Positions 1 through 543 of a DNA stretch of 41,941 nt are shown piece by piece. This stretch comes from Blastococcus sp. CCUG 61487 (GTDB taxonomy: Bacteria; Actinomycetota; Actinomycetes; Mycobacteriales; Geodermatophilaceae): positions 1 to 41,941 of the forward strand of contig NZ_LWUA01000044.1 in assembly GCF_005222955.1 (NCBI RefSeq), in the 5' to 3' direction. The position numbers and the translations under genes are program-made. Position 1 is the stretch's first letter, and every line of letters begins with the position of its first letter. The notes under the pieces were generated by a model, which had not been told where the DNA came from, did no database searches, and was given only the letters and a program-made list of their open reading frames with translations.

Positions 1-508
1 CACCCCACGGGGCACGGCCCCCGCCCATCGAGCCGGTCACGTGCTTCCAGCCTCGCCCGGTGAGAAAGCGGTGGTCGCCGCTGGCTACGAGTTCGGTGCC
101 GTCAGCGAGGATCACGCGATACGCGGGCTTGACCGTCGACCAGTGAGCCAGCACCTCTGTCTCGACGTAGTGCCTGTAGGTGCCGCGTCGCTCCGTGCCG
201 ATGATGCGATCCCCGACTCGGAGATCGGCGATCCGCTTCTGGCGTCCGTCGGCCAACAAGATCGACGTGTCGCTCCAGAGGCAGTAGACGCACGAATGAC
301 TACAGCCCCTGTAAGGATTGATCGTCCACGGGAACGGCATCGCGGACTCGCCCGGCACGCGGTTGAGCGCGGACCGCGCCCGGACCTCGTGGAAGGTCAG
401 CCCCGGGAACTCCGGTACCTGCACGCTGCGCAGCAGCCCACGGATGCTGGGCATCCCGGGCAGCGCTCCGGGCTCGTCGAGATCGAGTCGCTGCGCGTCC
501 CACCGCAT
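1..508 (-). CDS. Rv2578c-family radical SAM protein with intein (partial, C-terminus beyond window)
   Basis: The minus strand from the ATG at 508 reads open to the window edge (169 residues), so the gene is incomplete. Residues 1-75 match the N-terminus of the Rv2578c/spore photoproduct lyase-like radical SAM family: MRWDAQRLDLD, LTFHEVRARSALN, then NPYRGCSHSCVYC. C69, C73 and C76 sit where the CxxxCxxC iron-sulfur ligands belong. Directly at C76 the family sequence is replaced by an intein N-terminus: CLWSDTSILLADG and IADLRVGD are splicing block A, and GDHRFLT with H146 is block B. The intein would start at base 283. C76 would be the intein's first Cys, so the third cluster ligand of the spliced protein should come from a +1 Cys of the C-extein, which is outside the window. 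An intein-containing form of this family is, to my recollection, already known. Substrate unknown; a link to DNA damage is inferred from the SOS box upstream. Confidence 0.88.
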   Translation of the reverse strand, partial: MRWDAQRLDLDEPGALPGMPSIRGLLRSVQVPEFPGLTFHEVRARSALNRVPGESAMPFPWTINPYRGCSHSCVYCLWSDTSILLADGRQKRIADLRVGDRIIGTERRGTYRHYVETEVLAHWSTVKPAYRVILADGTELVASGDHRFLTGRGWKHVTGSMGGGRAPWG

Positions 509-514
509 GACCTG

Positions 515-543
515 ATTCGAACACGCGTTCGAGCGGTTGTCCA
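515..543 (-). promoter_or_regulatory. Promoter of the radical SAM gene
   Basis: On the minus strand TGGACA (538-543) and TCGAAT (515-520) are separated by exactly 17 bases. They resemble sigma-70/SigA -35 and -10 hexamers (5/6 and 4/6 matches). The SOS palindrome covers the spacer end and the -10, as expected for a repressible promoter. Moderate confidence because the -10 is weak. Confidence 0.5.
517..532. promoter_or_regulatory. LexA/SOS box
   Basis: The 16-base palindrome TCGAACACGCGTTCGA contains an exact match, on both strands, to the Gram-positive/actinobacterial LexA consensus CGAACRNRYGTTYG. It lies 9 bases upstream of the radical SAM ATG, within the 40-base gap after the Lrp gene, and overlaps the proposed -10. 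LexA binding here should repress the radical SAM gene until DNA damage. As I recall, the M. tuberculosis homologue Rv2578c is a LexA-regulon member. Confidence 0.85.

Follow-up and report, generated by a model that had tools for sequence, protein, structure and literature searches.

The first 508 bases of the window (the whole stretch analysed here, 41,941 bases, which is the entire contig C44 of a genome assembled in 296 contigs) begin a radical SAM protein gene of the Rv2578c family from an actinomycete. In all likelihood they carry the N-terminal portion of a class-1 intein that includes a LAGLIDADG homing endonuclease, set just before the third [4Fe-4S] cysteine of this Actinomycetota gene; an insertion element would have split this intein, leaving a gene that is probably dead, and the SOS box upstream would be a possession of the host gene and not of the intein. 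The value of the case lies in the comparison that it allows at one insertion site, where empty alleles, full homing alleles, partly eroded alleles, endonuclease-free alleles fixed in a genus and the present IS-split allele can be set side by side. Two things surprised us: an IS inside the intein defeats, in this genome, the splicing switch that had been proposed for it, and mobile and fixed forms of the intein contrast at a single site.

The radical SAM gene and its intein

Nothing precedes position 1 in the contig. The minus-strand frame 508..2 is open over 169 codons, and its translation runs through INPYRGCSHSCVY and then CLWSDTSILLADG, at a place where intein-free relatives have GCSHSCVYCFAR around the cluster cysteines. 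The frame is matched by NCBIfam NF038136, "intein-containing Rv2578c family radical SAM protein" (profile positions 1-164, E 2.3e-87). More general models respond weakly: TIGR01445 (intein_Nterm) matches from residue 76 with E 1.4e-4 and 22.8 bits, just missing its cut-off of 24.5, and matches to three Pfam Hint/intein models, starting at residue 72, 76 or 83, all fall below the respective cut-offs. The features of this part of the window are as follows.

517..532, no strand assigned: predicted SOS (LexA) box TCGAACACGCGTTCGA, shortly before the start codon (0 mismatches; with up to 1 mismatch allowed, 0.10 matches would be expected in the window)
284..508, minus: N-extein of the Rv2578c-family radical SAM protein, 75 codons, ending CSHSCVY (NF038135, E 8.3e-31, residues 1-79; NF038136; translation)
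290..304, minus: first two cysteines of the CxxxCxxC cluster motif, Cys69 (302-304) and Cys73 (290-292), the latter being Cys-3 of the intein (codons read on the DNA)
20..283, minus: intein residues 1-88, the N-terminal Hint part, with Cys1 (residue 76 of the frame) at 281-283 and block B SGDH at 71-82 (profile built from 18 relatives, E 1.9e-47; codons read)
20..27, minus: target duplication of 8 bp, TGGGCGGG, with its second copy where contig C24 ends (comparison of contig ends)
1..19, minus: end of a putative IS256-family insertion element, 19 nt, cut by the contig end (exact 19-mer repeated in the genome)

A search of this genome with NF038136 recovered the other half, profile positions 164-574, at the end of contig C24 (38716-40206, minus strand, E 5.3e-165). 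It holds two LAGLIDADG-type motifs, YLTGMIRGD and FLAGIFDAEG, and then DITTGTGDFIANGVISHN/CFARRTHEW (that is, GVISHN/CFARRTHEW, the slash marking the junction) with an open C-extein; LAGLIDADG_3 matches it with E 1.3e-7. Against NF038136 the window part scores 293.6 bits and the C24 part 550.3, together covering profile positions 1-574, and neither reaches the cut-off of 700 alone. Taken together, the halves show the features of a class-1 intein (CLWSDT with Cys1, block B SGDH with Ser where the textbook TxxH has Thr, an SHN C-terminus and Cys+1), placed ahead of the third CxxxCxxC cysteine and followed by a C-extein that starts CFAR, as in NF038136.

The preliminary description of this DNA, made from its letters, had placed an intein with class-1 blocks at the third cluster cysteine, and this is confirmed by the frame, by NF038136 and by the codons read on the DNA. 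Its coordinates hold too, except that bases 1-19 belong to the IS end and not to the intein. It had also expected an endonuclease, blocks F/G and a C-extein beginning with Cys upstream of position 1; these are not in contig C44 but do exist at the end of C24. Its statement that intein-containing members of the family are known was right: this kind of intein is already catalogued (NF038136, type "exception"), with the same host protein, insertion point and intein, the difference being that the gene here is split by an IS. A search of the open-licence literature found no description of the catalogued Rv2578c-family intein.

In intact copies, to judge by this anatomy, Cys1 would attack the Tyr-Cys1 bond, and the acceptor, Cys+1, would be the host's own third cluster cysteine. 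The spliced product would then be the same protein that intein-free species make. When the structure of an intact relative is predicted by AlphaFold (mean pLDDT 75.5, pTM 0.53), Foldseek matches it best to intein and homing endonuclease structures, namely TliVMA (7qsu, E 8.3e-15), PI-PfuI (1dq3, 2.9e-13), PI-SceI (1vde, 2.0e-11) and I-DmoI (9.0e-10). The predicted fold thus resembles VMA-type inteins (TliVMA, PI-PfuI, PI-SceI), a Hint fold with an inserted LAGLIDADG endonuclease, although sequence identity among the matches listed is only 13-16 percent and the host proteins are others.

Upstream of the radical SAM gene, the minus-strand frames 549-1034 and 1009-2154 look by eye like an Lrp/AsnC-type regulator and an M24-type peptidase. 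The genome has a second Hint-N match elsewhere (L004, G000:C157:89282-89560), inside a frame of 896 codons.

Probable turnover and fixation of the intein

Within the genus, the intein is present in 11 of 23 genomes (the window's own included) and the same codon is empty in the other 12; the 700-bit cut-off of NF038136 is passed in 10/23. Its length is 345 aa in eight genomes, 273 in G013 and 164 in G004, and the window's genome has an interrupted copy of 345. On the rpoB tree, presence and absence change seven times, against a mean of 8.0 obtained by shuffling the labels (161 of 500 shuffles were as low), and the extein tree likewise requires seven changes. We therefore rejected the idea that the intein is a stable trait of the genus, its presence being scattered on the rpoB tree. 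In the intein tree G004 and G011 are sisters (100/100), whereas the extein tree groups G004 with the empty G009 (100/99) and rejects a G004+G011 grouping (p-AU 3e-45), the pair having been chosen after the trees were seen. Directly upstream of the insertion, G004 and G011 are identical at 29/30 positions of the N-flank, against 23/30 for G004 and its sister G009; this excess is absent downstream and further out, so that co-conversion would have reached only about 30 bp, on one side. Over pairs of carriers, extein and intein identities are weakly correlated (0.35). Among nine genomes dN/dS is 0.22 for the endonuclease, 0.17 for the extein, 0.12 for N-Hint and 0.19 for C-Hint, values to be read with synonymous sites in this genus near saturation.

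The intein of the genus thus has what is expected of a LAGLIDADG homing element: two such motifs separate its Hint halves, and at a single site it is sporadically present and has moved laterally. Because its presence is scattered, one lateral transfer is well supported and the endonuclease is under constraint, we infer a homing element in active turnover, which at the DNA level would spread by homing into empty alleles. Homing is nevertheless not the whole story, since inheritance of the intein looks vertical in other groups.

Across the phylum, the intein profile matches 31 of 296 Actinomycetota genomes (E <= 1e-10), 29 times in the Rv2578c gene and twice in other radical SAM proteins; in a class draw it matches 33 of 394. 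A set of named loci was formed by the best 80 of 589 confirmed relatives, of which 77 could be parsed (3/80 could not), 47 with the intein and 30 without. Among these best 80 of 589, the nearest relatives of the window's genus are Blastococcus and Geodermatophilus, which probably places it in the Geodermatophilaceae. Carriers in the set include Isoptericola, Micromonospora, Lentzea, Pseudonocardia, Amycolatopsis, Conexibacter and Solirubrobacter, and its Rhodococcus, Mycobacterium and Arthrobacter loci are empty. Together with a second set of 35 inteins, the 47 give 82 sequences (the two sets may overlap), and Cys1, HN and Cys+1 are present in 82/82, as is Cys-3, the latter by construction, the search pattern having required it. 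At least 330 residues are found in 50 of them, 240-329 in 16 and at most 175 in 16; the block B pattern fails in 6/82, and each endonuclease pattern in 7 of the 50 long ones.

The clearest case of the opposite behaviour is genus g234 (L237-L260), in which all 12 genomes examined, every one from the class draw, have an intein of 152 aa without endonuclease. Over 66 pairs, intein identity follows extein identity (correlation 0.92), well-supported branches of the two trees agree, and the intein has a dN/dS of 0.30 against 0.19 in the extein. By these comparisons, the g234 intein is vertically inherited under constraint. In the 22 genomes of its taxonomic family, the intein also occurs in g254 (2/2), g297 (1/1, incomplete) and g258 (2/5), and not in g219 (0/1); one genome had no match. 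Domestication would look like the g234 pattern, and so would a simple failure to excise.

Related inteins occur at the same cysteine of other hosts as well, in two cases (G233 and G120) within the phylum draw. A DUF5131 protein (L192, G233:C135; intein profile E 2.1e-48, PF07505 E 3.3e-95) reads GCDQTSPGCDN/CLAPDT...THN/CYAM, and a protein assigned to the same DUF5131 (Gp37/Gp68-like) type by eye only (L228, G568:C359) reads GCSKISSGCDN/CLAPET...THN/CYAA. A QueE (L223, G120:C4; intein profile E 7.1e-22, TIGR03365 E 1.1e-92) reads GGCDYRCSW/SVTCNT...SRN/CDSKF, with Ser1 and an RN ending. This suggests that related inteins settle repeatedly before the third cluster cysteine (in Rv2578c, DUF5131 and QueE, with MoaA in print), the residue that would supply the +1 nucleophile; we found no report of such repeated settling in the open-licence literature.

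Another mobile element interrupts the same gene family. According to the report on the Samy prophage (PMC12924846), its attB lies in Rv2578c-family genes of Streptomyces, and inactivation had no significant effect. The 12-bp attachment repeat of Samy (L191) fits 11/12 bases near codon 29-33 in the Streptomyces-like loci L074, L076 and L077; this being the best match, we rejected an attB at the intein's cysteine codon.

The SOS box and a possible redox switch

The preliminary description was right about the SOS box (517-532, 0 mismatches) and went on to combine it with splicing as two layers of stress control acting on one enzyme. The box, a predicted LexA site conserved near the start codon, recurs in the rest of the genus (22/22 genomes) with 1 mismatch, 24-25 bases upstream of the start, whether the intein is present (10) or absent (12). 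In a fixed stretch of the best-80 loci, a match with at most 1 mismatch occurs in 58/73 (35/44 with intein, 23/29 without), compared with 2 of 7,300 shuffled stretches, and g234 has the box in 12/12 genomes. For the 29 phylum-draw loci, in which the start codons are unsure, 7 have such a match before the called start (2 provide no stretch). Rv2578c itself is probably among the listed LexA targets, although a literature search did not show this. In our opinion the gene is very likely under LexA in the phylum, regardless of the intein. Since the box occurs with and without the intein, it is, on this distribution, a property of the host gene, and we rejected it as part of an intein control circuit. 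The two layers are therefore not supported as one design, the box being independent of an intein that in this genus is gained and lost like a homing element.

A second argument of the preliminary description was that the unspliced protein cannot bind its 4Fe-4S cluster. This does not follow: in the precursor (Cys69-x3-Cys73-x2-Cys1) the CxxxCxxC spacing is kept, with Cys1 in third place, and the true third ligand, Cys+1, stands 345 residues away in the sequence.

In intact relatives, an alternative that we think unlikely is a redox switch: an oxidised disulfide in the CxxC formed by Cys-3 and Cys1 would block splicing, and an oxygen-labile enzyme, its precursor made under SOS control, would be held back until the cell is reducing. 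The precedent comes from the Pyrococcus abyssi MoaA intein, also in a radical SAM host with an N-extein Cys-3 and a catalytic Cys1, in whose precursor a Cys-3/Cys1 disulfide is reported to block splicing, the enzyme being oxygen-sensitive (Callahan et al. 2011, by way of the reviews PMC10663303 and PMC3922620); that host is of another family and another domain of life, and it is there that redox trapping was reported. Judging from its Cys-3/Cys1 pair, the MoaA intein may itself lie at the third cluster cysteine. By this analogy, redox sensitivity of splicing is plausible in the Rv2578c family, which has the same pair (CVY/C).

Cys-3, Cys1 and Cys+1 are indeed found in 82/82 inteins, but besides being built into the search, Cys-3 is forced by the cluster motif, and its conservation is therefore no evidence of selection for a switch. 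The 152-aa intein of g234, endonuclease-free in 12/12 genomes, inherited with its host (0.92) and constrained (dN/dS 0.30), is what a useful intein would look like; yet inteins are rarely lost by precise excision, so that a mini-intein can be fixed without being useful, and 3 of 5 genomes of g258, a neighbouring genus of the same family, are empty. In the QueE intein, which lies at the homologous cysteine, residue 1 is Ser, so there is no Cys1 trap. The scattered presence in the window's own genus, and a gene split in the window's genome, also speak against a switch. More doubtful still is the broader proposal that related inteins have come to the shared site because the host cysteine serves as +1 nucleophile, that wherever Cys1 is kept the CxxC1 of the precursor's CxxxCxxC1 motif is a redox or iron-sulfur gate on splicing, and that g234 has domesticated this gate under its SOS box. 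Matched intact precursors from these genomes now offer a way of asking whether bacteria really have a Cys-3/Cys1 redox gate at a radical SAM cluster motif.

A probable insertion element within the intein

Read in the coding direction, the window ends with ATGGGCGGG and then 19 bases that match no intein, and C24 opens with 20 foreign bases before TGGGCGGGCCGCACC. The 19-mer is found exactly at 6 places in the genome, all at or near contig ends or running 266-331 bases to one, and the 20-mer, representing the other end of the element, at 4 places including C24. Beside these tails, three pairs of contigs share an 8-bp duplication: C44/C24 with TGGGCGGG, C113/C135 with TCCTGGCC and C168/C227 with GCGGTCAG; in the same comparison three left ends and one right end remain unpaired. 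One tail that extends further codes for the C-terminus of a transposase of Mutator type, the IS256 family (PF00872, profile positions 338-378 of 379, E 5.5e-12), an assignment to family that rests on 41 profile positions of an element seen as contig-end pieces. The likeness to the IS256 family (PF00872) lies in this transposase part and in the 8-bp duplications (8-9 bp are expected); the difference is that no whole element is assembled here. The two ends resemble each other imperfectly (13/19 by eye). Finally, the two halves minus one duplication add up to an intein of exactly 345 aa, a length shared by eight of the ten remaining carriers in the genus.

From the repeated tails, the paired duplications, the transposase end and this sum, we infer that an IS256-family element entered the intein after residue 88, separating the N-terminal Hint part from the endonuclease, with a duplication of 8 bp. 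The break between C44 and C24 is then, on the evidence of these contig ends, biological in origin. Reading the N-half on into the IS end as in the C168 copy gives a stop after 181 codons (the window's own copy is visible for 19 bases, so orientation and stop are borrowed from C168). With the IS inside the intein, the radical SAM gene is probably dead in this genome. The claim that splicing switches the enzyme on is thus probably wrong here, and with the intein split we rejected a regulatory switch for this genome; the case warns that one should check for a working gene before telling regulatory stories. The preliminary description had itself named signs that would count against it: one, a stop soon after block B, does appear (by way of another IS copy), and the other, a lack of blocks F/G and of a C-extein, does not.

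The insertion is likely recent, because the intein is otherwise complete (Cys1, SGDH, both endonuclease motifs, HN, Cys+1) and its endonuclease, compared with eight relatives, has a dN/dS of 0.19, like the overall 0.22.

We considered whether the IS might instead have created a split intein, with N-extein and Hint-N made separately from endonuclease, Hint-C and C-extein and the two joined by trans-splicing. Artificial split inteins are commonly cut at this very place, between Hint-N and endonuclease, the C-half is open from the contig end over 571 codons, and it has an in-frame ATG at intein residue 101. Against this, the 119 nt of IS end examined contain no start codon, no ribosome-binding site is evident by eye before that ATG, the N-half would bear a foreign tail, and a recent insertion would likewise leave an intact C-half; we regard trans-splicing as very improbable. 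An assembly artefact, with chimeric junk for the 19 and 20 nt tails and the gene intact, deserves equally little credence: both contigs do stop here, with no assembled element between them, but exact copies of the tails are present at 6 and 4 places, those that extend further code for the end of a transposase, and we rejected it on the 8-bp duplications shared at these tails by two further, independent contig pairs.

Apart from the intein, further copies of the same IS256-family element end contigs C47, C77, C113, C135, C168, C227, C257 and C265 of this genome (G000), and diverged relatives are present at the ends of C220, C237, C15 and C48. One small contig (L045, G000:C280, 4,034 bases) has long frames resembling tyrosine recombinases, and 43 of its bases are common with the IS end region.
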